Of a DNA stretch of 63,015 bases, positions 30,366 through 47,530 are shown piece after piece; positions within the stretch are counted from its first letter, which is position 1; each line of letters starts with the position of its first letter. The DNA is from a virus: IMG/VR virus record IMGVR_UViG_3300027983_000014, positions 1 through 63,015 of that record; one strand, written 5' to 3'. The notes below the pieces were generated by a model. It was not told where the DNA came from and did not search any database. It saw nothing but the letters and a program-made list of their open reading frames with translations. Position numbers and translations under genes: made by a program.

Positions 30366-32370
30366 TTCGACCAACCCTTAGGTTTTTGACTTCAACACTA
30401 AACCCATGCTGGGTGTCGGTCTTAGCGTCATACAAAAAGCGGCTATCAAGGTTGGTGCTAATGTTCATGCGAGTGAAGGAGATCCGAATAAATCGCGCAA
30501 AGATTACTTGCCCCGCGTTATCAGTAAAATTGTACTTGGCGTAGCTCCACGGCAGAGTGTCATTGTAACGAAAAGACTTTGAAAATTCGACACTGGGCGC
30601 TGGCTTTACGTCAACAAACCGGCGGAGCGGAGCGGCGTCTAAAGTGTCGTAAGATATCCCAACGTCAAATGGTTTGTTAGTGATTTCGAATGTCATAAAG
30701 TTGACTGGTTGAGGGGACCCTAGGTCGATTTCTAGATAGTCGGTCCCCTCGGGGCGCTCTATGGAGGCCCAAAACTGATCGTCTTTGTACTTGATTTGAG
30801 GCACGTTTTGGAGAAACGCGTGGTCGGCGGGATAGATTCCGTTCACAAGCGACTTGCCGTTAGACTGCGCTGACACCGTCAGCGGCTCAGCGTAATCGGC
30901 CATTGCTCGGTCAGCCGTCAATCGTTCGGTCGGATTGATTTGAGTGAAACGAAGAGGCAACGCCTTGATCTGCTCATCGCTAAAGACGCCAACGTGCTCG
31001 GAAGTTATTCCCGGTACGTAATTTCCGTCCCATGGAACGTTCGTGCCTTCGGCGTAACTGGTCGCGTCGTCTAGAACGGCGTCCGTGTAAGCGGTAACAG
31101 AAGAGGCGGAGTGGAAGCCGACATAGTGTTCCGGCCTGTCTTGACGGATTCGCGGAGCCTCCTTTTCTTTGCCCGCCTCTATCCAATAGAAAGAGTTGAC
31201 GGCGGGCCAGTTAATGTCAGGATTACCACGAACGTAGCGCAAGATTTCGTAGGATTCGCTAGTAGACGCAACAGACTTCCACGGTTGGGATGTACGAGTA
31301 CCAGACCCAGCCGAAACACTAAAGAAAGTGTCGACGGGCTTTAGGTAGTCCAGAGCGGACTGGAGGTTGTGCTGTAGTTCGGGATCTATGACCGCGGCTT
31401 CGTCGACAGATGGGACCCCGTCAGCAATCGTTGTGATTTCAATGGTCGGAGACACCCCGCCAGTCAAAGCAGAGAACGACTTCAGCCTAGGAAGATCCTG
31501 ACCGGCTAGATCGCCCGTGAAGGTGACGACATAAGGCTCTAGATATGTAGAGGCAGAGATGGTGCCCGGGCCACCCGAAACGCGCACATTGTCATCTCCG
31601 ATGTTCTGGAGCGCCTGAAGCGCAGATTGGACTTCGTTGGCGGTTGCGTCCCAGTCAAGCGTCGATGTCGTCTGACCGTTGAAAATTAACACCCAGTTCC
31701 CGGCAGTAGGGGCACCCATGATCTCGACCTTTTGTTGCTCGGACCGGCTGACATCAAGCCTTGGGACCACAATAAATTCAGACGTAGATAAGGTGCTGCC
31801 AAAGTATTCATACCCCTTGGGGTCATCTGAATGGATATCAAAGAGGGATTGGTAGTTTTCGACAATGCGAACATTGCGGCCAATGCCAGAGCGCGCAGCA
31901 AGCTCCATTCCGAAGAGAGTGTTGCCAGCACGGGCTGCATTGAAGTACTCGGTGACGCGACTGCGATAGGATTCGTCTTGCGCCCTGATGAGGTCCCACT
32001 GTTCGCGTGGCAGCAATCCGGTGGGGTCTTCCTCATGGCTCTCGGCCAGTACGCGGCCAAACCGAAACGGGTTGGCGAAGTACTTTTCAAGGTCGAACAC
32101 CTCGACATTGTTGTCGGCAAGGTAAAGGCGAGCCTCTAGGGCGTTCTGCCGAAGCCATCCGACTCCAGCGGGACCCAGCAGCGTGTACATGAACCTGATA
32201 AAGTGCGTATCAGGGGCCTTGTTGTAAATAGAATCCGGGAAACGATCAAGATAATTTTGAGGATGGGTCGGACCACTTAGCGGTTCAACAAAGAACTCTT
32301 GTCGGATGGCGTCTGTGAAAGACGGGAGGTTGGTTGTCCTACCGACAGGAGTAAATGCCGTGTTTGCCAT
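30358..32370 (-). CDS. Large baseplate / tail protein with small beta domain
   Basis: This 670-residue protein starts MANTAFTPVGRTTN at 32370 (TAATG overlap with the J-like gene). The N-terminal 200 residues are helical. At about 220-320 there is a beta domain with NWVLIFNGQTTSTLDWDATA and later YVVTFTGDLAGQD, a domain repeated in many phage tail proteins. The C-terminal part has FARFIRISFTRM, like discoidin-type beta strands. It is probably a baseplate wedge partner. Confidence 0.82.
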   Translation of the reverse strand: MANTAFTPVGRTTNLPSFTDAIRQEFFVEPLSGPTHPQNYLDRFPDSIYNKAPDTHFIRFMYTLLGPAGVGWLRQNALEARLYLADNNVEVFDLEKYFANPFRFGRVLAESHEEDPTGLLPREQWDLIRAQDESYRSRVTEYFNAARAGNTLFGMELAARSGIGRNVRIVENYQSLFDIHSDDPKGYEYFGSTLSTSEFIVVPRLDVSRSEQQKVEIMGAPTAGNWVLIFNGQTTSTLDWDATANEVQSALQALQNIGDDNVRVSGGPGTISASTYLEPYVVTFTGDLAGQDLPRLKSFSALTGGVSPTIEITTIADGVPSVDEAAVIDPELQHNLQSALDYLKPVDTFFSVSAGSGTRTSQPWKSVASTSESYEILRYVRGNPDINWPAVNSFYWIEAGKEKEAPRIRQDRPEHYVGFHSASSVTAYTDAVLDDATSYAEGTNVPWDGNYVPGITSEHVGVFSDEQIKALPLRFTQINPTERLTADRAMADYAEPLTVSAQSNGKSLVNGIYPADHAFLQNVPQIKYKDDQFWASIERPEGTDYLEIDLGSPQPVNFMTFEITNKPFDVGISYDTLDAAPLRRFVDVKPAPSVEFSKSFRYNDTLPWSYAKYNFTDNAGQVIFARFIRISFTRMNISTNLDSRFLYDAKTDTQHGFSVEVKNLRVGRNG

Positions 32371-34703
32371 TACAACTGGTTCCAAACATTCTGCGCACGC
32401 GGCCTTAGGATCAGGCCAGCGACTGAATCGCCGGTAGCAGCCACCGTCGGGAGGCTTGGAAGCTCATCATCTTGTAGATAAAAGTCGCTATTGAAAACAT
32501 AATCACCGCCAGTTAGACCAGTTGGGTCAGATGTAATCAGGGGGCGCTCACCGGCACTTGAAAAGGTGACCACAAACGGGGCGGTAGGAGTCCCGTACCC
32601 CGTGACAGAGGTCACCGGGAACGATGCGGCAGTCATAGCATTAAGGACTGGGGTGACGCCATCGTCGAAGTTGATAGCGCCTGTTTCGTTCCCCTCATGA
32701 GACAGTGTAAATGTGCCGCCCGTTGGGCTTCCGACAATGTAAAATTGTTGTACGGCTGTTGCGGTGGCGTTGCCCCCTACCCGATGGTCAACCAAAACAT
32801 TCAAAAGCGGATTGCCATAGATATCACATTCGACCAAAGAGTCTCGACTCGTAGTCAAATCGCGAGACCAGCGAACGTTATCTACCCCGGAGACATTGTG
32901 AACAACTTGCAGAAGGTCAGACAGTTGGATAACTGACCCAAAATATTGGCCAGACAGATAAGAGTTCACTGAGTCTGATATCGATTGGCTGATGTCACTA
33001 ATGCCGACTCCGGTGGAAAACATAACGGTGACATCTAATTTGAAGAACCTAGTCTTAGCGCGGTGCGCAAGCACATCTGCCGTGACCTGCTTCTGCCCTT
33101 CCAGCGCCACCTGAAGATCTATGACATTACGGTCATACCGATAATTATCGATGGAGACCGCAGAATCCGTCGTACCGGCAATGGTGGTGCCAGAGTACGG
33201 GCCTTCGCTGTAATCTGCTTCGACAAGTCCACCTACCCCGGTGGCCCATTCGATTCCGTTGCGGGCACGGACCGTGTTCCCGATCTCGGTCACATCCTCT
33301 ACCGCCCAATAGTGGATGTCTTTGGTATATGTGGCATCAGATGTGGTGATCGTGTCCGGCAAATCTGTCGTGGGCTGCCAGAAAAGTGGCGTAAAAATGT
33401 TTCCGACGACAGGCCGACGGTTGGGCTGTCCCACCCTGCGGAAGTTTTCAACGCTAAGAAGTGCGCTTTCATTGCTCACAAAAATGTTCTGGGAGCCTTC
33501 GGGCCTTGGGATAACGGCGCTTGCTGTGACTTCGTTGCTTCCGTTGATAAACACATCTACACAATTGAGGACCTGTCGGTCCCAGTCATTGCGCGAAGCA
33601 GTAGACATATAGCTATGTTCAAATAGCGCGATGTCCTGCGGGCGGACAGCTTGGACCGTTGTGTCTGACCCCGAGAAAACATTGGTAAATGTCAGGTTGG
33701 GTTGATAAAGCGTAGACGCATCGAGGGCACTTGGTCCAGTCTCTGCTATGCGCCCCCTGTAAGCGTCGCCTCGATCTTTGGATGCGTCAGTAGCATTAAG
33801 TGAAAAGTCGACCCCAGTGCGATAGAAAGTTGCCCCGGCCCCGCTCTCGCCATTTGACACAAAGTAAGGAATGGTGTCGTAAACATGCTTCGAGTAGGGA
33901 ACCATAGACAAGGCCGTTGTGTAATCTCCAGCGGAGCCGTTTCCGATAATAGAGCTATCGGGATCTGCGGTTGCGTCGTCTACATCTGGCACCTGAATGT
34001 ATTCGCGGTAGCGGCTGATCGGGCCGACCACATTTGCCTTGGTCGTATTTTGCGTAGATACAGCAAGAGCCAGATACTGGTCTTCGGTCCCCGCCAGATT
34101 GCGAAAGACGGTATTTTTAAAGCGGATCTTATACTCATCGTCCGACTCTCGCTCGACCCCACCTTCGGTCGGGACATCGTTGGTTACTCCGACGATGCCA
34201 AGAATCGGCGTAGTCCCAAACTGGCTAATCGATCCGGCAGAGACATTGCCTAGGGCACCGGCCACACCGCTACGGACGGGGACGGTGACCTTAAGGGACC
34301 CAGCAGGCAAAGTAACGGGTTCTGAGGTCAAGAAAATGAGAGATGTGACTCCCGGGCCTCCGTCTACCGAGACGCTGGGAGCGATAACCTGCGTGTTGCG
34401 AGGGATCGGGACATCGTAAACGGAAGCGGTTGTGCGCCTGAAGGTGACATAACCGGTAGCGCCTCGCGCCTGCTGACGCCCGAAGCCAAACATGCCTAAG
34501 AATTTGTCGACATCGGTCCCGAACTTGGCGTCCAAGTCAAAGGCCCCGGTCAATATGTTCATGTCGACTTGGTTCTCGGCCAAGGCCTGTGCAACCGTGT
34601 CGATGATCTTGCGCTCTGGCGTGCCAACTTCTCCCGACAAGTTGGGGTCAAGCAGCCGGAGCTGCTGGAGCATTTGTAGAGCTAGATCTCTTTGTGTAGC
34701 CAT
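32370..34703 (-). CDS. Baseplate J-like wedge protein
   Basis: This 777-residue protein has the baseplate J pattern. The N-terminal half contains LDPNLSGEVGTPERKIIDTVAQ, VPIPRNTQVIAP and GGVERESDDEYKIRF. In T4 and Mu, gp6 and gp47 homologues form the wedge ring. Near the C-terminus (about 670-750) is a beta domain (GGTFTLSHEGNETGAINFDD, then FVVTFSSAG) like the one in the next gene downstream. It overlaps the gp25-like gene by one base. Confidence 0.92.
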   Translation of the reverse strand: MATQRDLALQMLQQLRLLDPNLSGEVGTPERKIIDTVAQALAENQVDMNILTGAFDLDAKFGTDVDKFLGMFGFGRQQARGATGYVTFRRTTASVYDVPIPRNTQVIAPSVSVDGGPGVTSLIFLTSEPVTLPAGSLKVTVPVRSGVAGALGNVSAGSISQFGTTPILGIVGVTNDVPTEGGVERESDDEYKIRFKNTVFRNLAGTEDQYLALAVSTQNTTKANVVGPISRYREYIQVPDVDDATADPDSSIIGNGSAGDYTTALSMVPYSKHVYDTIPYFVSNGESGAGATFYRTGVDFSLNATDASKDRGDAYRGRIAETGPSALDASTLYQPNLTFTNVFSGSDTTVQAVRPQDIALFEHSYMSTASRNDWDRQVLNCVDVFINGSNEVTASAVIPRPEGSQNIFVSNESALLSVENFRRVGQPNRRPVVGNIFTPLFWQPTTDLPDTITTSDATYTKDIHYWAVEDVTEIGNTVRARNGIEWATGVGGLVEADYSEGPYSGTTIAGTTDSAVSIDNYRYDRNVIDLQVALEGQKQVTADVLAHRAKTRFFKLDVTVMFSTGVGISDISQSISDSVNSYLSGQYFGSVIQLSDLLQVVHNVSGVDNVRWSRDLTTSRDSLVECDIYGNPLLNVLVDHRVGGNATATAVQQFYIVGSPTGGTFTLSHEGNETGAINFDDGVTPVLNAMTAASFPVTSVTGYGTPTAPFVVTFSSAGERPLITSDPTGLTGGDYVFNSDFYLQDDELPSLPTVAATGDSVAGLILRPRAQNVWNQL

Positions 34704-35170
34704 CAGACTGACGCCTGCACGGGAATCGAAATTTGGATAGGGTCATTACGCCCGGTAGTGATCTCTATCGTGACGGTGACCGTGTCTTCCTTGGGATTGA
34801 TAATGATGCCGTTGATTTCGTACAAGATCTCGTCCTTAGTCAAAGTGGCGTTTTTGAACGCAAACCTATCGGATTTGGCTCTGGTGAATTGAGTGGATCT
34901 GTAATCTTGAAGGATGCGGCTAATTTCAGCACGGATTTTAAGCAAGGCGGAGTCGTCTTGTCTAAGACCAATCATGCTTGGCCGCTCCATGCCGTTTTCC
35001 ATTCCGCCATCGATCAAAGACCCGTACCGGATGTGCAAATTATCAGTGCCCATAGGCTCTAGTACCCAGTGGGCCAGATCTTGTGCGACTTTCTGATGAC
35101 CAGTTGCGATGCCCAATTGGGCACCAGTGGTCGTAAAATCGCCGTTACGTATTTGCAGGCTCCAACTCAT
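34703..35170 (-). CDS. gp25/gpW-like baseplate wedge protein
   Basis: This 155-residue protein has the gp25-like fold. The N-terminal QIRNGDFTTTGAQLGIATGHQKVAQDLAHWVL is followed by DDSALLKIRAEISRILQDYRSTQ and beta segments near the end (VTVTIEITTG). It should initiate sheath polymerisation on the baseplate. It is immediately upstream of the J-like gene, the canonical gpW-gpJ order. Confidence 0.9.
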   Translation of the reverse strand: MSWSLQIRNGDFTTTGAQLGIATGHQKVAQDLAHWVLEPMGTDNLHIRYGSLIDGGMENGMERPSMIGLRQDDSALLKIRAEISRILQDYRSTQFTRAKSDRFAFKNATLTKDEILYEINGIIINPKEDTVTVTIEITTGRNDPIQISIPVQASV

Positions 35171-35654
35171 CCTGACTATTACCGGTCGGTTTCGAGTAGA
35201 TCGCTAGTGGCACGCCCCCAGCCATTATCGGGCGATCACAAGTTTTGAAGCCATGGCGCTCAAACATAGGGGCACTTGTAGGGGTCCCACCGATCCTTCC
35301 CTCCCTGACTCCGATTGTATGCCAAACGCCAAGCGCTCTGACAACGGAGGTAAAAATCCCCTGACCTTGGTGCTCTTTTTCGATGTAAAGCCCTTGGAAT
35401 TGCACCACAGAAGTGTCAGCTTCGTCGATGATGGCCCATCCGTGCCCCACCCTCTCTAAGTCTAGGATCCACTCAAACTGGACCTCTACCCTGTTACGCA
35501 GACCGTTGCCATCCCCGGGATTGTGCATCTCGGATTTAGACTGCACTTTACACAAAAACTCATCACAAGAAAAGGCTTTGGCCAATGCATATTCTGCTCC
35601 GGGATAGTCTAATAGTATATCAAGGTCGGCCATTCGATCACGCAACGCCTTCAA
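35145..35654 (-). CDS. GNAT-family acetyltransferase-like protein (second)
   Basis: This 169-residue protein carries a GNAT-like core: FQGLYIEKEHQGQGIFTSVVRAL (motif A with Q-x-G-x-G), then PMFERHGFKTCDRPIM. TTG at 35654 has AAGGAG five bases before it; ATG at 35633 is an alternative. It overlaps the gp25-like gene by 26 bp. This places an acetyltransferase in the middle of the baseplate operon, as at 26469. The substrate is unknown. Confidence 0.75.
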   Translation of the reverse strand: MKALRDRMADLDILLDYPGAEYALAKAFSCDEFLCKVQSKSEMHNPGDGNGLRNRVEVQFEWILDLERVGHGWAIIDEADTSVVQFQGLYIEKEHQGQGIFTSVVRALGVWHTIGVREGRIGGTPTSAPMFERHGFKTCDRPIMAGGVPLAIYSKPTGNSQDELEPANT

Positions 35655-35702: not shown

Positions 35703-35972
35703 TTATCGCCATAAACTTCTCAGAAGAACTAATCGAGATGCTTTCCAGAGATAGTATATATTGTCGCCTGTCTGCTGCTGCGCAATGATTGCCCCGTTAT
35801 TAGAAGCCCGGTGAAGGTGCGAACCAGCACCAGCAGTAGTGCCAGTGTGAGTGTGAGGGACAGACTGACCACCAGATTGATTGCCGCTGGCGCCAACACT
35901 ATGGGCGTGTGACAAAAGCGTCTCCAACCCGTCAGCGCCCTTAACGTTAGGGTTAGGTAATTGAAGAGTCAC
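35703..35972 (-). CDS. Short His-rich tail protein
   Basis: This 89-residue protein begins MTLQLPNPNVKGADGLETLL. It has HAH, HTH and HLH pairs within a Gly/Ser-rich middle, recalling the HxH region of the collar fibre. It overlaps the spike gene by one base. The C-terminus (LVLLRSLWR) looks unlike the rest and could reflect a truncated frame. It may cap the spike or chelate metal. Confidence 0.65.
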   Translation of the reverse strand: MTLQLPNPNVKGADGLETLLSHAHSVGASGNQSGGQSVPHTHTGTTAGAGSHLHRASNNGAIIAQQQTGDNIYYLWKASRLVLLRSLWR

Positions 35973-36877
35973 TACGCGACACCAGTAACTATAAGATTAC
36001 GAGTTATCCAATTGTTAAGGCCCCCACCGCACTTATAGGCCAGTGTAAACTTATTAGTTCCTGCTGTTAGTCCAGTAATAATATATGAGCGCCCCAACCC
36101 TACGTAAGTTGACGCCGGAACGCTAACAAGCACCCCGTTTGCGTCGGTGGCGCCCACGGCGTTTAACTGAACAGAAAGACGAGATGGGTTTGCGGTACCA
36201 TTAACCACGGTCGCAGTCATGTCAATCCTTGCTGTCGTACCTGTTACAAGCGAAACACTAACCGCCGTCGAGTCACTACTAAGCGTTGTGACATACGAGG
36301 CCGAGGACGAATTGGCAGAAGTGTTAGAGAACGCGCCCAACGAAGTCACACAAACCCAAACGGTCCCATTATAGATCGTCTGGATGCCCGTAGGAACGGC
36401 GTTCGTGGCTCCCGTTGCTGCCGGTACGGTCGGGGCTGTCAAATAAACAATCATTCCCTCGGTTGGAGAACCAATGGCTGAGTCACGCGCAGCCTCGTTT
36501 GTAAAAACTGACGTAGCAGTGATAAGGGTCTTGTCGGGTCCAACAACCAAATCGCCTTCAATGGATAGGCTCCCTGCAACCAAGGTGTTGCCCGTAATCT
36601 TGGTGTCTCCGGGATTAAGCGTTGAGACATCGCCAAGACCATCCTCAGGGATTTCGATTCGGCTATCTAGAATCCAGTAACCGTCATCTCGGCGGATTGT
36701 CCAAACCTCTCCTTCTGCTGGCCAACGGAACACAGCTCCGACTTCCGTAGCTCGGATCTGAACCATCGCGCCGTCTTTCAGTGTCCCCTCGATACGACGG
36801 GTGGCGGGATCGACAGTGATGATGCGTGTCGCCAATTTGCGACCATATCCGCCCTGTAGGTATCTGCTGACTGGCAT
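35972..36877 (-). CDS. Baseplate spike / gpV-like protein with OB-fold
   Basis: This 301-residue protein has an N-terminal OB-like domain (about 15-75: RIEGTLKDGAMVQIRATEV...GEVWTIRRDDGYWI), as in baseplate V or gp5 spikes. A repetitive beta stretch and a C-terminal beta domain (about 185-301, TLAYKCGGGLNNWITRNL) follow. It should sit below the hub and pierce the envelope or wall. It is the first gene after the hub genes on the same strand. Confidence 0.8.
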   Translation of the reverse strand: MPVSRYLQGGYGRKLATRIITVDPATRRIEGTLKDGAMVQIRATEVGAVFRWPAEGEVWTIRRDDGYWILDSRIEIPEDGLGDVSTLNPGDTKITGNTLVAGSLSIEGDLVVGPDKTLITATSVFTNEAARDSAIGSPTEGMIVYLTAPTVPAATGATNAVPTGIQTIYNGTVWVCVTSLGAFSNTSANSSSASYVTTLSSDSTAVSVSLVTGTTARIDMTATVVNGTANPSRLSVQLNAVGATDANGVLVSVPASTYVGLGRSYIITGLTAGTNKFTLAYKCGGGLNNWITRNLIVTGVA

Positions 36878-36911: not shown

Positions 36912-38309
36912 TCAATCCGCTTGCGTTGAGAGCACCCCGGCCCTTACCATCCCGGCACTAGCGTTTTGGCGTGTTCCCATCTTGGCATCGGCTGGAGCGA
37001 CAAATTTGACCTGAGTCTCAAAGCCAGTCTCGTAATCGAAGGTGTGAGTGACCTCGTCAACATACATTTGCAAGTCATGCTGAGGGAAGCGCACAATGCC
37101 GCCGGGATAAATCTCAGGCATAAAGGTGAGCGAAAAGTCTGCGTTAAACTGCTGGCTCCACATCAAAGAAAACTTCTGGTATGCCAAGAAGGTCTCATAG
37201 TAAGGGGAACGGACCATCGGGGCCTCTTCGAAATGCGGACGAGCGCCGTACTTGCGTAAAAACGCGATGGCTTTATGTTTCTCAGCTAGCGTAGGGCTGT
37301 CCAGAGAGACAGGAGGCTCGTCTGGTTTATCGCCATCTTCGCCGATCTGAACGGCATTCTCGTCTTTCGGATTCATAAAGCCCGCTGCAAATGCGTCAAA
37401 AACTGTAACGATCCCGTTAGTCTGAACGCGATCAAACATGTTGACGCCATCATAAAGACCAGCGATGTCACCAACCACATAAACATGAGTGGCTAAAGCA
37501 TCATCTGTTAAGTCGACCTGACCGCTCAGTATTTCGATGTCTTCGATATCCCAGTAGGGAGTTCTATGATTTTGTCCCCCGAAGTAGTCTGGGTAAAAGG
37601 CAAAAAAGTCGCCATTCGGCAAAGACTGGATGTTCCGCAAGCAAGCCTGAGCAAGCTGTTGCACAAATGGGAACAGGGGCTGATCATTCATAAGCGACTT
37701 CTTGCCGCGAAGAGCCAGACTTTCTACGTTATTAAAAAGTCCGGGAAGATCAATATAAGTTACAAAGGCAGTGGATTTAGAAAGTTTTTCGACGGTCCGA
37801 AGGTCTACTCCTCCTTCCGGGGTTCCCGGGGTAGCCGATTCCTCGTCCGACCCGGTCCGAGGCGAAAACCCATTTGTGCTACGAGCCTCTCGCCAACCAA
37901 CAGGAATGAGCTTGTTGCCGCTACCGCCAGACTCAGCGAACTTCCTGCCACCGTCCATCTCGAAAGTCATAAACGCGTGTGAGTCACTCGGATTACCGGG
38001 GATTTCGTTCACCCAAACCGTGAACTCCTTACCTTCCCCAGCCTTACCCCACACATTCAAGCCGGTAGTCGTCTGAGGCGATGTGAGCAAGCCACCAGCG
38101 TTCAACACAGACGAAACGAACCCGGAGCAATCGTACCCGTTCGGATCATTGAAGCTACCGTGGCCGCCACCCCACAAGTACAACTGCTGTCTCTTATGGA
38201 TTTCGTCAACACGAGCAATCATCCGCTCAACAAGCGCGCTTGACTGATTGGCTGGCTGCCCGCGAGGACCAGTAGTGGAACCTTCATGGTTGCGATCAAT
38301 CGCTGGCAT
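36912..38309 (-). CDS. Hub-family protein A1 with NlpC/P60 endopeptidase domain
   Basis: This 465-residue modular protein has an N-terminal NlpC/P60 domain: C61 in NGYDCSGFVSSVL and H111 in DSHAFMTF. NlpC/P60 enzymes cut stem-peptide bonds. From about 190 on it shares a domain with the next two genes (LALRGKKSLMNDQPLFPFVQQL, NHRTPYWDIEDIEIL, FLRKYGARPHFEEAPMVRSP). That part is presumably a baseplate hub component. It overlaps the paralogue by one base. Local wall digestion during infection is inferred. Confidence 0.9.
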   Translation of the reverse strand: MPAIDRNHEGSTTGPRGQPANQSSALVERMIARVDEIHKRQQLYLWGGGHGSFNDPNGYDCSGFVSSVLNAGGLLTSPQTTTGLNVWGKAGEGKEFTVWVNEIPGNPSDSHAFMTFEMDGGRKFAESGGSGNKLIPVGWREARSTNGFSPRTGSDEESATPGTPEGGVDLRTVEKLSKSTAFVTYIDLPGLFNNVESLALRGKKSLMNDQPLFPFVQQLAQACLRNIQSLPNGDFFAFYPDYFGGQNHRTPYWDIEDIEILSGQVDLTDDALATHVYVVGDIAGLYDGVNMFDRVQTNGIVTVFDAFAAGFMNPKDENAVQIGEDGDKPDEPPVSLDSPTLAEKHKAIAFLRKYGARPHFEEAPMVRSPYYETFLAYQKFSLMWSQQFNADFSLTFMPEIYPGGIVRFPQHDLQMYVDEVTHTFDYETGFETQVKFVAPADAKMGTRQNASAGMVRAGVLSTQAD

Positions 38310-39862
38310 TACTCTTCGCTTCCTTGCAATCGCATCGACCCCGCCCTGATCATCCCTTCGTGAGCCTTCAGGCGGCCCACACGGTTCCCGTCGCCACTGT
38401 TGATGGCTGCCGGGGCGCTTAGCTGAGCTTTAGTCATGAACCCCTGCTCCATGTCTGCGATATGTTCGACTGAATCGATATAGCATTGGATGCCATGAGA
38501 CGGAAAAGATACTATGCCGCCGGGATACAGCTCGGGCATGTAGGTAAACGTGAAGCCTGTGACAAACTGTCGTGACCACATCAGCATGAACGTTTGGTAG
38601 GCAAGAAAGACTTCGAAGTAGGGGGAGCGGACCATTGGGGCTTCTTCAAAGTATGGACGGGCGCCGTACTTGCGCAAAAACGCCAGCGTTTCGTCTACGG
38701 CAGCTTTAGCCTGCGCTGACGGCGGGTTACCATCTTCTGTTTCTATGCTTTCATCGTTGCCAGTATCGTCTTTTAGGGCCACCTGCCCTGCCGGACTGAA
38801 ATTGTCTGATATGAAGTTTGACTGGAAGGCCTCAAACACTGAAATAACCCCAGCAGTTTGAATCTTGTCAATCAGATTCACTCCATCGAAGTTGGCGATG
38901 TCACCAACTACATATACATGGGTCGCCAAACTGTCGTCAGTCAATTGCATATTGGCGTCAATAATTTCGATGTCTTCAATTTCCCAGTATGGCGTTCTAT
39001 GATTAAGGCCGCCAAAGTAGTCCGGATAAAAGGCAAAGAACCCCCCGTTTGGCAAAGATTGAAAGCTTCTAAGAGAGGCCTTGCACAACTGCTGGACAAA
39101 CGGAAGGAGCGGTTGATCGTTCATAAGGGATTTTTCTCCCCTAAGGGCTAGCGATTCCGCCATTTCCATAATGCCGGGAAGATCAATGAAAGTTGCAAAT
39201 GCAGCGGCTTTAGCAGTCCCGATGATTTGTTCAAGAGAGGCCGTGTCCACATCGGCATCAGTAGAGCTTGGGGCCGTGTCACCAAGTTGGACGACCTCTC
39301 CGTTTTGGGCGCCTTTGACCCAGCTTGTTGGGTCAGTGTTTCCGTTTCCGCCCGGACCATACCGAGCGCTCCCCGGCTTGGAAATGAACATGTGGATATG
39401 CTGGCTTCCGCCAAGGCTTCCCGTTCTGCCAAGCGGCGTCCCGGCCGGGACCTTTTGTCCCTTCTGAACGCGCACAGAGGACGGAAGCATGTGGCCGTAA
39501 CCAAGATATGAGCGGGCGGGCAAGCCCGTCTCTTCGGGCTTAGTTGGAGTGATACTAACCATCGCTTTACCCGTTCTTGATCCTGACCCCGTGTACCAGC
39601 TCTTGTCCACTGTCGCGATTTCACAATCAAACGCCGCAACTAGAACCGATCCGACATCACACACAACATCGACCCCACGATGGCCGCCCGAGTAGTTAGA
39701 GCGTGCGGCTCCATATTCGCATCCGCTACAGTTGCCGACGGCCTTCGCCCCTACGCTTGGTATAGGCCTGACTACGGCAGAAGGGCTGTCTGGCTGCCCG
39801 CGAGGACCGTCTGGCTGCGCACGAGGATAACGAGGAGCCGCTGGTCTAGTAGGTCCGGGCAT
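38309..39862 (-). CDS. Hub-family protein A2 with M23 metallopeptidase domain
   Basis: This 517-residue paralogue of the flanking genes has an N-terminal Pro-rich start (MPGPTRPAAPRYPRAQPDGP). An M23/lysostaphin-type domain follows with H61 and D65 (HRGVD), H124 and H155-x-H157 (QHIHM). A CSGC pair precedes it. The shared hub domain starts at about 225. The zinc-binding residues are present, so the enzyme is probably active on cross-bridges. Parts of its DNA are identical to the neighbour, a sign of recent duplication or conversion. Confidence 0.9.
   Translation of the reverse strand: MPGPTRPAAPRYPRAQPDGPRGQPDSPSAVVRPIPSVGAKAVGNCSGCEYGAARSNYSGGHRGVDVVCDVGSVLVAAFDCEIATVDKSWYTGSGSRTGKAMVSITPTKPEETGLPARSYLGYGHMLPSSVRVQKGQKVPAGTPLGRTGSLGGSQHIHMFISKPGSARYGPGGNGNTDPTSWVKGAQNGEVVQLGDTAPSSTDADVDTASLEQIIGTAKAAAFATFIDLPGIMEMAESLALRGEKSLMNDQPLLPFVQQLCKASLRSFQSLPNGGFFAFYPDYFGGLNHRTPYWEIEDIEIIDANMQLTDDSLATHVYVVGDIANFDGVNLIDKIQTAGVISVFEAFQSNFISDNFSPAGQVALKDDTGNDESIETEDGNPPSAQAKAAVDETLAFLRKYGARPYFEEAPMVRSPYFEVFLAYQTFMLMWSRQFVTGFTFTYMPELYPGGIVSFPSHGIQCYIDSVEHIADMEQGFMTKAQLSAPAAINSGDGNRVGRLKAHEGMIRAGSMRLQGSEE
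38874..38938 (-). repeat. 65-bp direct repeat, copy 1 (in A2)
   Basis: This 65-bp segment within the hub domain of A2 is identical to 40517-40581 in A3. It encodes part of the DDSLATHVYVVGDIANFDGVN region. Perfect identity, including third codon positions, suggests recent duplication or gene conversion. Confidence 0.85.
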
Positions 39863-39865
39863 TAC
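39807..39865 (-). repeat. 59-bp direct repeat, copy 1 (start of A2)
   Basis: The first 56 bases of the A2 coding region plus three upstream bases are identical to 41363-41421 at the start of A3. This encodes the shared Pro-rich leader. Confidence 0.88.
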
Positions 39866-41418
39866 TCTCCTTTTACACTCGGAGGAGCTGGGGACGGACC
39901 ATTGCCCACCGTAGGAGCCTTGTTCATTGCCATGCTCCCGGCTCTAATCATTCCCTCATGGGCAGAAAGGTTGCCAGTTCTAACGGTTTGCCCATTCTGA
40001 TTTCGCGTGATGGCTGCCGGGGCACTTAACTGCGCGGTTGTGTGGAAGCCGCTTCCAAAGTCGGCGACATGGCTGACTGAATCGATATAGCACTGTATCC
40101 CGTGCCGAGGAAACGAAACGATGCCCCCCGGATACAGCTCGGGCATATACGTGAACTCAAACGTAGTCACAAACTGTCGTGACCACATCAGCATGAACTT
40201 TTGATAAGCAAGAAAAGCCTCGAAGTAGGGGGAGCGGATCATTGGAGCTTCTTCGAAATAGGGACGGGCGCCATACTTCTTCAAAAAGTTGATGGCCTGC
40301 TCATTATTAATGTTAATTTGAGCGCTAGAATCATCTTTGTACTTATTGTTATCCTGATTGTCGCTCATTGGCTTTCCTGCAAGGGGTCCGTGATGGTACG
40401 GATCTGCTTCAATTTCAGTTTGGTCGCTTGTCGCAGAGGTCGGGTTGCCAGACAGGAAGTCTGCTTGAAATGCAGTAAAAACTGTGGCCACTCCGCCACT
40501 TTGGATTTTGTCGAATAGATTCACTCCATCGAAGTTGGCGATGTCACCAACTACATATACATGGGTCGCCAAACTGTCGTCTGAAAGATCAATCTCTCCG
40601 TTCAATATTTCGATGTCTTCAATCTCCCAGTATGGGGTCCTATGATTGAGGCCGCCAAAGTAATCGGGGAAGAAAGCAAAGAAGCCTCCGTCTGGCAGCG
40701 ACTGAAAATTACGTAGCGATGCTGCACATAGCTGCTGCACGAAGGGCATGAGCGGCTGATCGTTAAGAAGAGACCTTTCGCCTCGCAAAGCCATCGACTC
40801 TGCCATATCCATAATGCCGGGGACGGCGATGAATGTGGCAAAGGCGCTAGCCTTGGCGACCCCGGCAATTTGGGCGAGGGTGGCTTGAGTGGCGTCGTCG
40901 CCCGGAACCGCCGCGCCCCCGTCTTGTGTGTCCGAGCCATCAAGCCACGGCTCAGGGTCAACCAACGTGCCATTACGCTTTAGACCAAAGTGCAGGTGCG
41001 GCCCGGTGGAGTTGCCCGTGCTCCCAACCGCACCGATGGTGTCGCCCTTCTTAACGCCCTTTCTAACCTGAACAGACATCTTACTAAGGTGCAGATATTG
41101 TGTGACAGTCCCGCCGCCATGATCAATTTCAATCATCTTGCCCGCGTCGCCTGCTATCGCGGCAAAAGTAACACGTCCGTCTTTGACGGCAAAAACGGGC
41201 GTCCCTTCTGGAGCTTGGATGTCGATGCCTTTATGATCGCTAGACGCTCCGGCAGTAGGCGAAGTCCTAGGTCCGAAGTCAGAACCGTCGCCTGTGCCCA
41301 TTTTGTATTTGCCGGGGACAGGCCACATGGGCTTGTTGCTCTCAGTCGGCGGAGTTCGAGGGCCGTCTGGCTGCGCACGAGGATAACGAGGAGCCGCTGG
41401 TCTAGTAGGTCCGGGCAT
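39862..41418 (-). CDS. Hub-family protein A3 with M23 metallopeptidase domain
   Basis: This 518-residue paralogue starts with the same Pro-rich leader as A2. An M23 domain follows: H62 and D66 (HKGID), H110 (YLHLS) and H141-L-H143 (PHLHF), all conserved. The shared hub domain starts at about 190 (MALRGERSLLNDQPLMPFVQ). It is one base from the transglycosylase-bearing hub protein. Compared with A2 the M23 domain is more canonical, so the two could have different bond specificity. Confidence 0.92.
   Translation of the reverse strand: MPGPTRPAAPRYPRAQPDGPRTPPTESNKPMWPVPGKYKMGTGDGSDFGPRTSPTAGASSDHKGIDIQAPEGTPVFAVKDGRVTFAAIAGDAGKMIEIDHGGGTVTQYLHLSKMSVQVRKGVKKGDTIGAVGSTGNSTGPHLHFGLKRNGTLVDPEPWLDGSDTQDGGAAVPGDDATQATLAQIAGVAKASAFATFIAVPGIMDMAESMALRGERSLLNDQPLMPFVQQLCAASLRNFQSLPDGGFFAFFPDYFGGLNHRTPYWEIEDIEILNGEIDLSDDSLATHVYVVGDIANFDGVNLFDKIQSGGVATVFTAFQADFLSGNPTSATSDQTEIEADPYHHGPLAGKPMSDNQDNNKYKDDSSAQININNEQAINFLKKYGARPYFEEAPMIRSPYFEAFLAYQKFMLMWSRQFVTTFEFTYMPELYPGGIVSFPRHGIQCYIDSVSHVADFGSGFHTTAQLSAPAAITRNQNGQTVRTGNLSAHEGMIRAGSMAMNKAPTVGNGPSPAPPSVKGE
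40517..40581 (-). repeat. 65-bp direct repeat, copy 2 (in A3)
   Basis: Identical to 38874-38938. It lies in the same position of the homologous hub domain. Confidence 0.85.
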
Positions 41419-41421
41419 TAC
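41363..41421 (-). repeat. 59-bp direct repeat, copy 2 (start of A3)
   Basis: Identical to 39807-39865, covering the start of A3 and three bases before it. Confidence 0.88.
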
Positions 41422-42560
41422 CGATACTTGCCCCAGCCGCCGCCGTCTCCGGCATTACGTGAAGACTCCCATGGCTGCATCCCGCCCGACTTGAAGAGGG
41501 AGAGAGCCGCCTTGGCGTTGTTGAAAGGGTTGCGCATGTCGCCATGTAAGCGGACTAGATCCGGATGCACCTTAACATAAATTTGCCACAAGCCCTCGCA
41601 GCCGATGCTGTTAACCAGACCGGGCTTGAGTGATGACTCAGCGAAGGCCACGCGACGAAATAGCTTTGCGTCCTTCTCGCTAAAGCCAACATACTTCGCT
41701 ATAGAAAACACCTGACTGGGGTCCAAAACGTCAGACCCATTTTCAGGGTACACTCGATCTAGGCCTTGGAGTTCAGCATCTTGGACATTGTTGTCCCCGC
41801 TATCACCACCACCATTGTCAAGTGCGCTGCCGTAAGACCCGCCACCGAGCGCCCCCTCCAAGAAATAATTGAGGTCGGCGCGGGCCGACGCCTCGGCCGT
41901 TAATGCCATTTCCTTGTAGATGTTTTCTACGGTGTCGACGATGCCGTCAGGCAAACTTTCAATGAAAATTGTTTCATCAGACCAGCCGCCGATTTCAATA
42001 AGTGTGTCAAATAGCAATCCGCCTATCGAACCATCGGTTTGCTTTACATACGGGGTTCCGTCGGGCCTGAACTTTTTCGCAGGGGCTGTTTCTTCTTGGG
42101 GATTTGTGATTCCGCCAAGCTGCGCGTTGACCTGCCACCCGTGAGACTGAAGAAACTCCCAAACAAAAGGAAGCCCCGGATCGAAATAGGTGTAGAGAAG
42201 GCGCTTAATAGTGCAACTGGCTTTGATCTTGCATGTCCCGGGGAATAGCTGGATGTACGGGGTCGTATCACAAAACCCAGTGAACACTTGCATGGGCCGA
42301 TCTTTGATCCTAGTCATTGTGATCACGATAGGGTCCATGGGATGGAAAATTGGTCCCCGTGTCGACGTCTTTGAAACCGAGTCGTAAGTCTTGCTGTCCG
42401 TCCAGATAAACTGAGGGTTGCGGAACTCTACTTCGGCCGTGCTGACTGCGTCGATTTGGCGATTAACCGAACAGCTTGTCACGTAGGGGCTTAGATCGTA
42501 AATGCCAGAATCTGTTTTGACAAATACATCGACTCTTGGAGTGTAAACTAGGCGTTTCAA
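41418..42560 (-). CDS. Hub-family protein B1 with lytic transglycosylase domain
   Basis: This 380-residue protein has an N-terminal hub-like domain shared with the next gene (MKRLVYTPRVD...IKDRPMQVFTGF...RLLYTYFDPGLPFV). A linker precedes a C-terminal SLT-type domain (about 283-380): E308 in VAFAESS, then GCEGLWQI and PFNNAKAAL. It should cut the glycan backbone. The catalytic Glu and the surrounding motifs look intact. It overlaps B2 by 4 bp and A3 by one base. Confidence 0.9.
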   Translation of the reverse strand: MKRLVYTPRVDVFVKTDSGIYDLSPYVTSCSVNRQIDAVSTAEVEFRNPQFIWTDSKTYDSVSKTSTRGPIFHPMDPIVITMTRIKDRPMQVFTGFCDTTPYIQLFPGTCKIKASCTIKRLLYTYFDPGLPFVWEFLQSHGWQVNAQLGGITNPQEETAPAKKFRPDGTPYVKQTDGSIGGLLFDTLIEIGGWSDETIFIESLPDGIVDTVENIYKEMALTAEASARADLNYFLEGALGGGSYGSALDNGGGDSGDNNVQDAELQGLDRVYPENGSDVLDPSQVFSIAKYVGFSEKDAKLFRRVAFAESSLKPGLVNSIGCEGLWQIYVKVHPDLVRLHGDMRNPFNNAKAALSLFKSGGMQPWESSRNAGDGGGWGKYR

Positions 42561-43705
42561 TCTGCTCTCCTAATCTCTACGTCCCCTTTGCCCGAGAACT
42601 TAAGGGCCTTGGTGATTCCCGGTTCAAGGTCGATTTTATAATGTGCGTCACCCGCTTGCCCCGAGCCGTTGTCTACCTTAGTGATGAACCAAGTCTTGCT
42701 GGGTTTTTTGGGGTCTCGAATCTCTAGCTTAAAGCGGCATTTCAAACCGGTCGGGGTCCCGTCGGTCACTTCGCCCTTGATATCAAACAAATCCGCTAAA
42801 AACCCTCCGTTACGGGCCAATTTCAATTTTTTATTGGTGCCAGCAACGCCCAGTTCAGCATAACTGAATCCATTGTTCTTGGCTTCGTTCCCGCAGGAAA
42901 CATCTCCTCCGCTGTAATCATCCGTAGTGGCCCCAACCTTAACCCATTCGCCCTTGCCGACCCCAGACGTAACCGATCCGCCATCCTCATTCACAGCGTA
43001 GCCGCTTAGTGTGGCGGTCCCAATCATTTCTTTTAGCAGGAGTTTGATGTCTTTGAATGCTTCTTCGCTGGTCGTTTCGCGATCCGTGACCATGGCGGCC
43101 ACTAAGCTGATGATGCCCTCTGGTAATCCTTCTATGAAAATGGATTCAGGATCCCAGCCGCCGATTTCATTCAACACATCAAACAGTAGTTTGCCAATGC
43201 TTGCGTCATTTAGGCGAAGGGATTCATCTTCTACGCTTTTTTCTCCGCCGAGCTGCGTCAAGCCGGTTTGAGTATTAGTTTGCCAACCCTTTTCCTCAAG
43301 CCAAGTGTGGACAAAAGGAAGTCCCGGATCGAAGTAAGTATAAAGAAGTCGCTTCAATGTGCAAGAAGCGGTTAGTTCTACAACGCCCGGGTAAGCGGAG
43401 ATGTAGGGGGTCGTGTCTAGGAACCCAGTGAACACCTGCATAGGACGATCTTTGATGCGGGTAAGCGTAACGGTGATCTTATCCATAGGATGGAACACGG
43501 GAGCCAAAACCTTAGACCCATCGGAGTCTGTGCGCTCGCCATCGGTCCACATAAACTGCGGATTGCGCAGCGTTAAGTTAACCGTACTGACGGCGTTCTG
43601 GCGGCGAGTGACGCTACCCTTAGTGATGTATGGGCTGACATCATACAAACCCGTGTCAGTCTGAATAAAGGCGTCGACCCTAGGAGTGTAGACGAGTCTT
43701 TTCAT
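42557..43705 (-). CDS. Hub-family protein B2 with RlpA-like double-psi barrel
   Basis: This 382-residue paralogue of B1 has residues 1-230 alignable with it (shared VYTPRVD, LRNPQF, IKDRPMQVFTGF, YTYFDPGLPFV, IFIEGLP). Residues about 278-380 differ and resemble a double-psi beta-barrel: FSYAELG near the start, ITKVDNGSGQ and HYKIDL near the end, giving D345 and D359. RlpA and expansin-like proteins with this fold act on glycan strands. The assignment of this domain is less certain than the others. Confidence 0.78.
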   Translation of the reverse strand: MKRLVYTPRVDAFIQTDTGLYDVSPYITKGSVTRRQNAVSTVNLTLRNPQFMWTDGERTDSDGSKVLAPVFHPMDKITVTLTRIKDRPMQVFTGFLDTTPYISAYPGVVELTASCTLKRLLYTYFDPGLPFVHTWLEEKGWQTNTQTGLTQLGGEKSVEDESLRLNDASIGKLLFDVLNEIGGWDPESIFIEGLPEGIISLVAAMVTDRETTSEEAFKDIKLLLKEMIGTATLSGYAVNEDGGSVTSGVGKGEWVKVGATTDDYSGGDVSCGNEAKNNGFSYAELGVAGTNKKLKLARNGGFLADLFDIKGEVTDGTPTGLKCRFKLEIRDPKKPSKTWFITKVDNGSGQAGDAHYKIDLEPGITKALKFSGKGDVEIRRAD

Positions 43706-43711
43706 AATCCC

Positions 43712-44518
43712 TTAGAGATTCGGGGCAGTTGGCGTCCCCCAAAGTCCAGTGGACGGAGTTTCGCGAAGCGGACCCCGTCCTTCCGTCGGCTTGGGTGGTT
43801 TGGGTGGTTTGGTTGGTTTTGTTATCTCCTGAAACTCGTTTCTTGGACGCGCCGCAAAAAGGGTCATAAAATCCGTCATCTCTTTTGGCTTCCAGCTTCC
43901 GTCTTCTAAGCGACCGGGGCCTGTGACCATCTCGGCGACTAGAAACTCAAACTCAAATGTGGGAGCGGGATCAAAACGCTTAGCGCCAGCCTGAATGTTT
44001 TTGATGTACCCCTTGGCGACCCACTGGTGAGGGCGCCCTTTGCGTGCAGTATTTGAGCCGGGGTTGGCTTCTCCCCTCAGGTCTTCATCGCTTTTTCGTC
44101 CGTTGATGCTTAGCTCGATGAGCGGATCGAAGTCTGCGTCATCTTGCGAATAATATCGCGACGATAATGCGTTGTACTGGGATTCACGCACAAAAATGGC
44201 AAACAGGTTTCTTCTGTAGCTGTCAGCGTGTCTGCCCCTGATCGTGATGCTAGGCTGAGACAGGTTGTGAGGGAAGAATTGACGAACGCTACGGCTCTGC
44301 CCAGTCGATCCGTTGATGTTGATGGTAATGTCCATGTCCTCGATCCAGAAATAGATCTCACGATTAAATTGGTCCGTCAGCTTTGCGGTGTAATTGTTGG
44401 TCGACGGATCGGTTTCCGAAATGTATCTGACCCCGTAACCTTTGCGTATGGGTAGTTCGGCCCCCGGCACATGTTTCTGGCCGTGTTTGTCGCCAGACGG
44501 GGTCCAATAATTACTCAT
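43712..44518 (-). CDS. Baseplate / tail protein
   Basis: This 268-residue protein begins MSNYWTPSGDKHGQKH; ATG at 44518 has GGAGGCGGGCAAG before it and overlaps the upstream gene. It contains IYFWIEDMDITININGSTG and a C-terminal Pro/Lys linker (KPTKPPKPPKPTE). Its strand pattern resembles the LysM-less gp53-like or tail-tube-initiator proteins, but no firm family is named. It lies between the tape-measure region and the hub genes. Confidence 0.78.
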   Translation of the reverse strand: MSNYWTPSGDKHGQKHVPGAELPIRKGYGVRYISETDPSTNNYTAKLTDQFNREIYFWIEDMDITININGSTGQSRSVRQFFPHNLSQPSITIRGRHADSYRRNLFAIFVRESQYNALSSRYYSQDDADFDPLIELSINGRKSDEDLRGEANPGSNTARKGRPHQWVAKGYIKNIQAGAKRFDPAPTFEFEFLVAEMVTGPGRLEDGSWKPKEMTDFMTLFAARPRNEFQEITKPTKPPKPPKPTEGRGPLRETPSTGLWGTPTAPNL

Positions 44519-45335
44519 CTTGCCCGCCTCCGCTAGGCGGATTAGGAGTCGGAGCAGGAGCGCTAGGCGGATCTGTTCCTTTGCCGCCGCCACTTAGGAA
44601 CGCCGGTTTTGAATAATCGGCATTCAGACTCCGGAAGTCAGCAGCCAAGTAGGCTGGGATCAATTGTTTATAGGTCTCGGACAGATCTTTATAATGTCCT
44701 CGGACCTTGCCTTCCTCGTACTGCTTTGTGGTCGGACCAGAAAACGGGTCGTCTACCTTGAAATCGAATGCAGTGTCCTTTCCATCTGCAACGGAGCTAG
44801 TATTGAGCGTCGCTTTCCCAAAGAGAGACACCTTTTGGGTGGTCATATAAGTCTTCCCCGACTCCGGTAGGATCGCTTCTCCTAGCTCCTTATAAGCCTG
44901 CTGGCCAATGCCCCAGTCAGGTTCTACTACGGCGGCCTGCATGGTCCATTCAGGGACGACGATGTCGCGCCCATATTTGAAGGAGGGGAGGGACTTAGGG
45001 ATTAAGTGGAAAGTCCAGCCTCGTTCTTCGTAATACATGTGGACGGGAGTAGACTTGTATCCGTCTGCCCCCTGCCCCGTGTTACCTTGGGTGGCGCCCT
45101 CCATGTATTCTACAAACCAAGCAAAAATTTCTTCCATCTCCCGGTAGCTTCCAATACTTCCAGTAATGGTCATGTCTTCAATGAAGACAGACAGGATCTG
45201 AATCACCTCTCCACCATAAGTTGGGTAATTAGCCGTGTTGAGCTGATAAGACCATTCTATAGAGTTTGGTTTTACCTGTACACTAAGCGTGTTGTCTTCT
45301 CCTCTACTGGGATCTCTAAACTGAATTCCAGCCAT
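44511..45335 (-). CDS. Baseplate / tail initiator-like protein
   Basis: This 274-residue protein begins MAGIQFRDPSRGEDNTLS. Its body contains IEWSYQLNTANYPTYGGEVIQIL and FIEDMTITGSIGSYREM, similar in style to the following gene. The tail is a flexible Pro/Gly segment. It is immediately downstream of the tape measure, where tail-tube initiator proteins usually lie. No enzyme motif is seen. Confidence 0.78.
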   Translation of the reverse strand: MAGIQFRDPSRGEDNTLSVQVKPNSIEWSYQLNTANYPTYGGEVIQILSVFIEDMTITGSIGSYREMEEIFAWFVEYMEGATQGNTGQGADGYKSTPVHMYYEERGWTFHLIPKSLPSFKYGRDIVVPEWTMQAAVVEPDWGIGQQAYKELGEAILPESGKTYMTTQKVSLFGKATLNTSSVADGKDTAFDFKVDDPFSGPTTKQYEEGKVRGHYKDLSETYKQLIPAYLAADFRSLNADYSKPAFLSGGGKGTDPPSAPAPTPNPPSGGGQDE

Positions 45336-47530
45336 TATCGACCCCCCCCGGCGAAACGGTATTTGCTTGTAGACCCGGCGCTTGCGGCATCATCATTGGC
45401 CCGCCCGTCGCCTCGGTTGGCGTCGTCCTTGGAAGTCACTAACCGGAAGTGCTTCGCCGCCTCTCCTCTTAGCTCGATATAAGTCTTATTAGGGTCGGCA
45501 GCATCGGGCAGCAGTCCGTCAGGCAACCCCTTATCCGTAACAAAGCGTTCCATTTCTTGCTGCTGCTCAGATATGATCTGCTCAAGCCGATCCCACTCTT
45601 TGTTGTGGACCCCGCCCTTCCTGATTTGGGCAATGTCGGCACTCCTATAATTGGCGATTTCATCTATCTCTTTCTTGTATTTCTGGCCGACTATGAAGTC
45701 AGGCTCGCCCTTCTCGCCCGGGATTCGCGCCTGACGGATTTCGTTAAATGCCTCGCCCTTCGTAAAGATGTTGGGATCGTTGTCAGTGGTCCTCCCATCT
45801 AAGAGAGCTTCGACAGGAGTTTTGCCCCCCCAGCGCACCTCCCGGCTTTCAGCATTGAATTGATCGGCGTACCCCCCGCTGCCAAGCATCGCTTGCATCA
45901 ATTGCGAGTAGCCCTTTTTGACCTGCCTAGTCTGCGGGTCCATAAGCTGTCTCAATACGTCCGGAGACATATCCGTGTGTTGAGCCATGAGTCCGATCTG
46001 CTGCTCCCATCCCCCAGAGATAGTTTTAAGACCCATATCTCCAAGCTTCCCCGGAGCTTTATTCACCAAAGTTTCGAAGCCGCTTGTGGCAGTTCCAAGT
46101 TCGTTGACAGACTGGATCATGGCGGATATCTTCTGGCCGCCGCTCATGCTTGCCTGAGCGTTAGGCATAAGTCCAGTTGATCTAAACGCTGCGGACTGGT
46201 AGAACGGGTTCTGCATGTATTGCTCCATAACGGCAGGGGGCAAGCCTCCCACTCCGGTAAAATACTCCGTGTCCTTGACGGCTTGCATTGCCGTTCCGCC
46301 CATTTTTTCATAGGTCTCGGCAAGCTGCAAGGCATCTTGAACCATCTGCTCTTGAGTTACATGAGCGACATCGGCAGCCTTTGGATAACCCTCGGTCAAA
46401 AGCGTGAAGAATTCATTCATGTCGGCGTTGCCGTATCGAAGCGCCTTATCCATAAGCAAAGGGGTATTCGGATTTTGAGCCATCCGCTTGTTGGACTGCA
46501 TCATGCCGTCGTAGCCTTCTCGGTAACGATCTACCAAGTTGTCAGAAGGGGACCCGCCACCCTGTCCTCCAGTATAACCTAGCGCGCTAAGCTGCTGATC
46601 AATGAAACCCACTTGCTCACTGTTGATGCCGCCCTTGGAAGCCGACCTTTTAACCTGTTGAAATTTTTCTTCTACGCCCTTGGTAAAGGTTTGGTTGAGG
46701 AAGGGAACGCTGAGTGGCCCGAACTGTCCTCCTGTCCCGTAAGCATTGGCTGCTAGGCCACGGTCGAGGGTCGGGGCCATGGCAGTGTGATAGTTGCTGG
46801 CGTACTGTTGGGCAATTTTGTAATTTGGGATATATTCTGCCGCTTTATAAAGGCCATAGGCTGCTTGAGCAGATCTTAGACCGGCGCCCTCGGTGTCAGG
46901 GTTGTTACGATGACGTCTTTCTGCCGTCCTTTGCGCGATTCCGCCCATTGTTCTCAAAAGAGAGTCTGCTTGAAACTCTCCGAATTGAGGGATCAGCAGC
47001 GGCTCGGGAGCCTCAGGAAGCTGTGCGAACGGCCTTGAGGCACCAGAACTTGCTCCTCCTGTCCCGCCTCCGCCTCCGCCTCCGCCTCCGCCCCTGCCCG
47101 GATTTGAATACCCTCCCTGAGACACATTCGGCAAGTCGATAGGCGTCATATTACCCCACAAGGCCTCGCGCCCACTCGCTGTTAGACTTTGGCGCAGGCT
47201 GTTGAAGAAGCCAGAGGAGTGGCCTTCGCTCGGCCCCATCCCTGCGCTAGAGATCGGCTGACCGTCAGGGCCTAGTAGACCGCCGCCGCTCCTAGAGGCC
47301 TGTGCAGAATGGCCCGACTTGTAGAAGTCTGCATTGATCCCCTCGGCAAGATTCTTCTGCGCCCTTGTGGCTTCGGCTATATTGACGGAAAGCGCATCAA
47401 TACTTGCCTTGAGCTGGTCGATCTCTTGACGAAACGACCCCATGTTCTCGGTTAGCTGCTGAAGGTTTACGGACCCCAAAAGGTCTACAATCCTTACGTC
47501 AAGTGGATTTTTGTCGTCGCCGAGGGCCAT
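45335..47530 (-). CDS. Tape measure protein
   Basis: This 731-residue protein has an N-terminal helical coiled-coil (about 10-60, LQQLTENMGSFRQEIDQLKA). A Gly-rich linker with a run of glycines (about 145-160) and long helical segments follow. There is no evident muralytic motif. It lies between the chaperone genes and the baseplate genes, which is the tape-measure position. At the usual ratio the length would imply a tail of roughly 110 nm (inference). ATG at 47530 lacks a good ribosome site. Confidence 0.82.
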   Translation of the reverse strand: MALGDDKNPLDVRIVDLLGSVNLQQLTENMGSFRQEIDQLKASIDALSVNIAEATRAQKNLAEGINADFYKSGHSAQASRSGGGLLGPDGQPISSAGMGPSEGHSSGFFNSLRQSLTASGREALWGNMTPIDLPNVSQGGYSNPGRGGGGGGGGGGTGGASSGASRPFAQLPEAPEPLLIPQFGEFQADSLLRTMGGIAQRTAERRHRNNPDTEGAGLRSAQAAYGLYKAAEYIPNYKIAQQYASNYHTAMAPTLDRGLAANAYGTGGQFGPLSVPFLNQTFTKGVEEKFQQVKRSASKGGINSEQVGFIDQQLSALGYTGGQGGGSPSDNLVDRYREGYDGMMQSNKRMAQNPNTPLLMDKALRYGNADMNEFFTLLTEGYPKAADVAHVTQEQMVQDALQLAETYEKMGGTAMQAVKDTEYFTGVGGLPPAVMEQYMQNPFYQSAAFRSTGLMPNAQASMSGGQKISAMIQSVNELGTATSGFETLVNKAPGKLGDMGLKTISGGWEQQIGLMAQHTDMSPDVLRQLMDPQTRQVKKGYSQLMQAMLGSGGYADQFNAESREVRWGGKTPVEALLDGRTTDNDPNIFTKGEAFNEIRQARIPGEKGEPDFIVGQKYKKEIDEIANYRSADIAQIRKGGVHNKEWDRLEQIISEQQQEMERFVTDKGLPDGLLPDAADPNKTYIELRGEAAKHFRLVTSKDDANRGDGRANDDAASAGSTSKYRFAGGGR

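Follow-up and report, generated by a model that had tools for sequence, protein, structure and literature searches.

A baseplate hub encoded as multiplied half-subunits, each with a predicted wall-targeting domain, in a virus record from IMG/VR

Hubs of the gp27/gpD family, among them gp27 of T4, gpD of P2 and gp44 of Mu, are trimers in which each subunit contributes two tube folds, so that the assembled ring has quasi-C6 symmetry (PMC7048315). In the single-gene hubs of family phrog_2810, represented by gp132 of Mycobacterium phage Myrna, the proteins of Gordonia phages Skog and Pupper and gp119 of Rhodococcus phage E3, both halves lie on one chain with enzymes between them; Pfam identifies these as NlpC/P60, to which E3 adds SLT_3. 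Here we describe a different arrangement in the IMG/VR virus record IMGVR_UViG_3300027983_000014, whose 63,015 bases, analysed at full length, we refer to as the window. Five minus-strand genes at 36912-43705 encode homologues of the two hub halves, again with enzymes between them and at the same place in the locus as in phrog_2810 phages. A hub fold is predicted for each half, as in gp27, gpD and gp44, but the two tube folds are on separate chains, and each has been multiplied and bears enzymes.

Several described systems share part of this arrangement. In gp147 of Bacillus phage 0305phi8-36, a 'hyperplastic' gp27 homologue, the hub domains are conserved and the peptidoglycan-cleaving domains can be exchanged; unlike the window system it is a single gene, and the parts of the published account drawn on here report no paralogous half-subunits (PMC2147016). 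The closest functional analogue is found in the type VI secretion system of Vibrio cholerae, where VgrG1, VgrG2 and VgrG3 are paralogous hub-spikes with different C-terminal effector domains that are thought to form mixed trimers, and where VgrG-2, virtually without an extension, is the required one (PMC3166118, PMC8668125). In Aeromonas dhakensis it is multiple effectors, not the heterotrimer as such, that are required. A mixed trimer at the window locus may be argued from these spikes by analogy, keeping in mind that they are whole VgrG chains encoded at scattered loci. Finally, gp35, gp36 and gp37 of mycobacteriophage Mysterious, the products of three separate genes, form a heterotrimer by electron cryo-microscopy (preprint PMC13252515), but what they form is an accessory protein of the baseplate, listed as an inner tail fiber, rather than a hub, and it is not described as enzymatic. 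Searches of an open-access library brought up no description of a hub divided and multiplied like this one, which does not in itself prove that there is none.

The five genes mutually overlap, by 1-4 bases. In 5' to 3' order, HubN-a (42557..43705, 382 amino acids) joins a first hub half, containing tube-like domain 1, to a C-terminal DPBB/RlpA-like domain (about 42557-42868), and HubN-b (41418..42560, 380 amino acids), which has a TTG start codon and overlaps the HubN-a stop by 4 nucleotides, joins a first half to a C-terminal SLT_3 lysozyme-like domain (about 41469-41702). Three second-half genes follow, with 1-base overlaps between neighbours: HubC-a (39862..41418, 518 amino acids), with an N-terminal M23 peptidase domain (40954-41238) ahead of the hub half (40012-40851); HubC-b (38309..39862, 517 amino acids), likewise with M23 (39374-39685) and hub half (38405-39232); and HubC-c (36912..38309, 465 amino acids), with an NlpC/P60-like domain (about 37935-38231) and hub half (36987-37790). 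The group sits between the tape-measure position and the gp25/wedge genes, where a hub is expected. We rejected both faulty sequencing and the disruption of one gene as causes of this arrangement, in view of the five intact, coupled open reading frames, a different split in seven relatives and the clear divergence of the paralogues; stop read-through or a fused product was set aside because each gene has its own start.

How firmly can these genes be called hub genes? The C-terminal ~270 residues of the three HubC proteins align closely in MAFFT, HubC-a and HubC-b being 75% identical, and HubC-c up to 60%, over the 256 columns of the tree set. All three cover positions ~621-925 of the 952 in phrog_2810, with E-values (1.7e-53, 7.5e-51 and 8e-57 for HubC-a, -b and -c) that make chance kinship untenable. 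The two HubN proteins, 45% identical to each other, span the opposite end of the family, ~46-267 (HubN-a at 47-267, E = 3.7e-40; HubN-b, E = 1.3e-33). The same division recurs against individual proteins, HubN and HubC matching opposite ends of Myrna gp132, Skog gp186, Pupper gp123, Rhodococcus phage E3 gp119 and Phrappuccino gp82, where both ends reside in a single gene of 806-973 amino acids. E3 gp119 reads first half, SLT_3, NlpC/P60, second half, which is the order of HubN-b followed by HubC-c, and HubC-c aligns with it over both NlpC and hub parts (E = 9e-53). Whereas phrog_2810 has both domains on one polypeptide, the window spreads them over five genes. Judged by sequence, then, the domain common to the HubC proteins amounts to no more than the second half of a gp27/gpD-type hub, HubN supplying the first, and the window system is by descent a split variant of the phrog_2810 hubs, not a standard member. 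A preliminary description had recognised three adjacent genes with a common C-terminal domain at 36912-41418, which the reading frames, the alignment and the family profile bear out, and had quoted motifs that are indeed present, with small variants in HubC-a (MALRG, FLKKYGARP). It was right that there is more than one paralogue of gpD/gp27 type, but each of its genes supplies one half of a hub, the second, and the pair of genes for the first half was missed, so that the unit is two plus three. The closest isolate matches are ~35% identical; because of this divergence from sequenced isolates, cultured phages alone would not lead to the split-hub lineage.

Structure prediction points the same way. 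AlphaFold2 models of HubN-a and HubC-a, built from alignments of 56 and 45 relatives, are confident over most of residues 1-120 of the former and over about residues 260-320 and 370-470 of the latter, with linkers and enzyme parts modelled poorly. Foldseek places the first half near hub/spike proteins of the Algoriphagus and Anabaena injection systems, MuSo2, Pa193 and E217 (best E = 8e-05), and the second half near a Neisseria MC58 tail protein (E = 1.8e-06), Mu gp44 (E = 5e-04) and the hubs of 7-7-1, Milano and Pyocin R2; entries 7b5h, 7aef, 3cdd, 9rku and 6u5h are common to both models. The predicted fold is thus related to hubs, those of Mu, MuSo2 and contractile-injection-system baseplates among others, and profile and Foldseek matches together assign the first tube-like domain to HubN and the second to HubC. 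Searching by sequence returned no solved-structure relative of the hub halves, save a marginal stretch in a baseplate protein of phage phi812.

Each of the five genes also carries a predicted wall-related domain: double-psi-barrel-like (DPBB-like), SLT, M23, M23 and NlpC/P60. The M23 assignment is above the Pfam cut-off in HubC-a (E = 2.8e-33; motifs HKGID, YLHL, HLH) and 1.1 bits short of it in HubC-b (E = 3.3e-06, 27.6 bits against 28.7; HRGVD, YGH, HIH), and the HxxxD and HxH zinc/catalytic motifs are present in both. HubC-c matches Pfam NlpC/P60 under the cut-off (E = 0.0012), with support from relatives and from a match to phrog_1015 (E = 0.0012), a family annotated as 'tail protein with lysin activity'; DCSGF and SHA would provide the catalytic Cys and His. 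All three fronts had been credited earlier with intact catalytic residues, and the motifs are there in each, but the third, polar member of the NlpC triad is ambiguous. HubN-b scores 33.8 bits against SLT_3, for which the cut-off is 27, with a candidate catalytic Glu in 'AES' at residue 307. The DPBB assignment of HubN-a comes only via homology: its tail, where the model is of low confidence, is 38% identical (E = 4e-11) to the tail of the third first-half protein (N3) of relative L014, which itself falls ~3 bits short of the Pfam DPBB_1 cut-off (E = 1.3e-05, 25.7 bits against 28.8).

What might such a set of proteins build? The ancestor was a single gene, consisting of a first tube domain, wall enzymes and a second tube domain; it has been cut between the enzymes and its halves multiplied to two HubN and three HubC, every copy having a wall-targeting domain of its own. 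A standard hub consists of three copies of one chain, whose first and second tube domains, three of each, together form a quasi-sixfold ring. In the window phage, three HubN and three HubC half-subunits would fill these six places below the tail tube, and each particle would carry a mixture of wall-cutting domains, not three copies of one set. Any subunit of a given type could probably take any place of that type, with no set order, and particles may differ in their occupancy; if N (first-half) and C (second-half) subunits alternate, N touches C and not N, so that paralogues of one type should be exchangeable. The enzymes, if active, would hang from linkers toward the wall, and tail contraction would open the wall of a presumably actinobacterial host. 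We put the probability of such a mosaic quasi-sixfold hub, with interchangeable half-subunits and mixed hubs, at roughly 0.6. A fuller formulation, in which the ring is drawn combinatorially from pools of paralogues (2N+3C here, 3N+1C in sister phages), each virion has its own enzyme mix, and ring parts are homogenised while enzymes are swapped, is more tentative, and we would give it slightly less than even odds.

Relatives, labelled here by L-numbers, came from profile-guided scans of IMG/VR with family alignments; these proved necessary, as a scan of viral contigs with a single protein as query returned no relatives. Fusion is the common state, with 82 distinct fused hub proteins against ten split-hub genomes including the window, and in relatives the fused gene occupies the position that the split genes take here, flanked by the tape measure and gp25/wedge. 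In seven of the split genomes, L014 (the same as L015), L016, L017, L018, L019, L020 and L026, three first halves accompany a single second half; L027 has one of each, and L013 has an N, a C and a fused NC gene. No extra hub-half copies were found elsewhere on the searched records, which may be incomplete. All split N genes except that of L013 form one supported group with the window in the N tree, and the C tree puts the window together with these split relatives and with a fused hub encoded on a contig of Candidatus Solirubrobacter. That fused protein (L025 / L169, NZ_AUEK01000007.1, Candidatus Solirubrobacter pratensis) was the sole match in the genome-contig scan, and its contig is a possible prophage and host clue. 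Because relatives infect Mycobacterium, Gordonia and Rhodococcus, and because of this homologue, we infer an actinobacterial host. In another relative, L022, a single-chain hub of 1074 amino acids (L022:8111-11335) appears by eye to hold M23-like and SLT-like domains and an SGNH/GDSL-like insert inside its first half, and the baseplate protein upstream of it (L022:6795-8111, the counterpart of window 43712..44593) carries an NlpC-like domain, so that enzymes are also borne by other baseplate proteins.

The 1N+1C genome raises the question of whether all five window genes are needed. A single HubN/HubC pair might be structural, the others being surplus copies, free lysins or decaying duplicates; HubN-b and HubC-c together have the full ancestral domain order and would suffice, as a single pair apparently does in L027. 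We regard this as very improbable, given five intact reading frames with conserved hub domains, a ratio of non-synonymous to synonymous substitution rates (dN/dS) of 0.04-0.08 in the orthologous N hub domains of relatives, and a copy number of three in seven of them.

The paralogues evolve in two parts. Within 3N genomes, N hub parts are 65-78% identical, against 51-66% between lineages; the hub parts are thus homogenised within genomes by concerted evolution, while the enzymes diverge and swap. Between L014 and L016, N hub parts are 88-93% identical and tails 35-71%, the extreme being N2 (hub 93%, tail 38%), and the tail of L016 N3 is 55% identical to that of L017 N2, with hubs at 54%, a case of tail swapping. 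Across relatives, the C-terminal domains of N subunits are Amidase_2, SLT, M23, NlpC-like, VanY/GDSL-like or DPBB-like, and the NlpC-like domain stands at the end of N in L013, L014, L019 and L026 and at the front of C in the window. The fronts of those C subunits that lack a Pfam match (L014, L016, L019, L020, L026 and L027) might be dead M23 domains, a match to which hhalign gives a probability of 62%. In the window itself, HubC-a and HubC-b share, among the residues that they have in common, 21 identical codons in a row (residues 280-300 of HubC-a; run-length shuffle P = 0.0002), a sign of gene conversion between the two.

These patterns bear on a strictly ordered heterotrimer, with HubC-a, HubC-b and HubC-c in fixed places at 1:1:1, which is close to what the preliminary description proposed. 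The numbers invite it: the window has three C genes, no more and no fewer, and seven relatives have just as many N genes, a count that suits a trimeric hub. A pairwise test of privately shared residues detects slot-specific residues between L014 and L026 (P = 0.007) and between L016 and L026 (0 of 300 shuffles), that is, a memory in gene order, and the triplication therefore predates that lineage split, with ring parts homogenised afterwards. No such memory is seen between more distant genomes, at a distance where the test has low power, and gene order shifts, L019 N1 corresponding to L020 N2. Since the window has no more than two N genes, its HubC-a and HubC-b apparently exchange sequence, and relatives multiply the other half, we consider fixed places improbable; homogenisation and lost slot identity fit interchangeable slots better. 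Gene spacing carries a further hint: in all seven 3N+1C genomes N-N gaps range from -4 to +9 bases and a gap of 18-54 bases separates the C gene from the N genes, whereas all hub-gene junctions overlap in the window, L013 and L027. A ring of one N1:N2:N3 set and three C would call for a separate dose of C, which the spacing would fit, though this is suggestive only; ribosome-binding strength did not separate N from C genes.

Alternatively, hubs may be homotypic, each particle using a single kind of HubN and a single kind of HubC, in three copies each, so that the progeny are mixed and bets are hedged over wall chemistry. Paralogues kept alike, presumably all docking on the same partner, and bearing diverse enzymes would suit this scenario, but it requires a sorting mechanism that stops similar paralogues from mixing, and the tight coupling of all genes shows no sign of switching. 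L020 encodes a first half of 246 amino acids without an enzyme, the gene being intact with a clean stop after the linker; as a hub version of its own it would be pointless. Its hub part is under purifying selection, with a pairwise dN/dS of 0.045 against L019 N2, a value that includes time before the enzyme was lost, and this suggests that the half-subunit itself matters. We therefore think homotypic hubs unlikely, if a little less so than fixed places.

The interchangeable mosaic hub faces difficulties of its own. Two N genes for three N places leave the window with no simple 1:1:1 arrangement; identical C subunits cannot distinguish N paralogues if the two alternate, so that ordered occupancy would have no obvious mechanism; and concerted evolution is also compatible with alternative homotypic hubs. 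The 3N count may have been inherited once and so would not represent seven independent events. AlphaFold2 confidence is modest (mean predicted local distance difference test score 65 and 64, predicted template modelling score 0.41 and 0.50 for HubN-a and HubC-a), and Foldseek template modelling scores are low, about 0.2 on the query.

If the halves do co-assemble, this would be the first phage hub, as far as we know, in which each of the two tube folds has a chain to itself and one ring takes in several paralogues. It would then constitute natural evidence for modular hub slots and a tractable test of multi-enzyme loading per shot in contractile machines, which is still argued for VgrG spikes. 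A split hub would also offer a design principle for tail-borne lysins.

The surrounding minus-strand genes are those of a contractile tail: a sheath gene (49416-50909), a 732-residue reading frame in tape-measure position (45335-47533), baseplate proteins matching phrog_2786 (44511..45335) and, directly upstream of the hub, phrog_2777 (43712..44593), a gp25-like baseplate protein (34703..35170; phrog_2669, E = 6.5e-22) and a baseplate wedge subunit (32370..34703; phrog_6, E = 2.5e-45). The wedge protein contains, at residues ~646-735, a stretch common to sheath and major tail protein families. Downstream of HubC-c lies a possible spike (35972..36877), judged by eye from an OB-fold-like start and without a family match in phrog and Pfam profile searches. 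A GNAT-type acetyltransferase (35145-35654, minus strand; weak Pfam matches, below cut-off) lies within the baseplate operon and overlaps the gp25-like gene. Histidine-rich repeats with a tail fibre/collar-like look occur in two minus-strand frames, at 26873-28036 and 35703-35972 (HSHTVGGHQHGMTHQH...; SHAHSVGASG...HTHTG). Away from the tail genes, the large subunit of ribonucleotide reductase (2954-6814, minus strand, 1286 amino acids) is interrupted by HNH- and endonuclease-like segments at residues ~313-358 and 793-945, and it probably holds one or two inteins.
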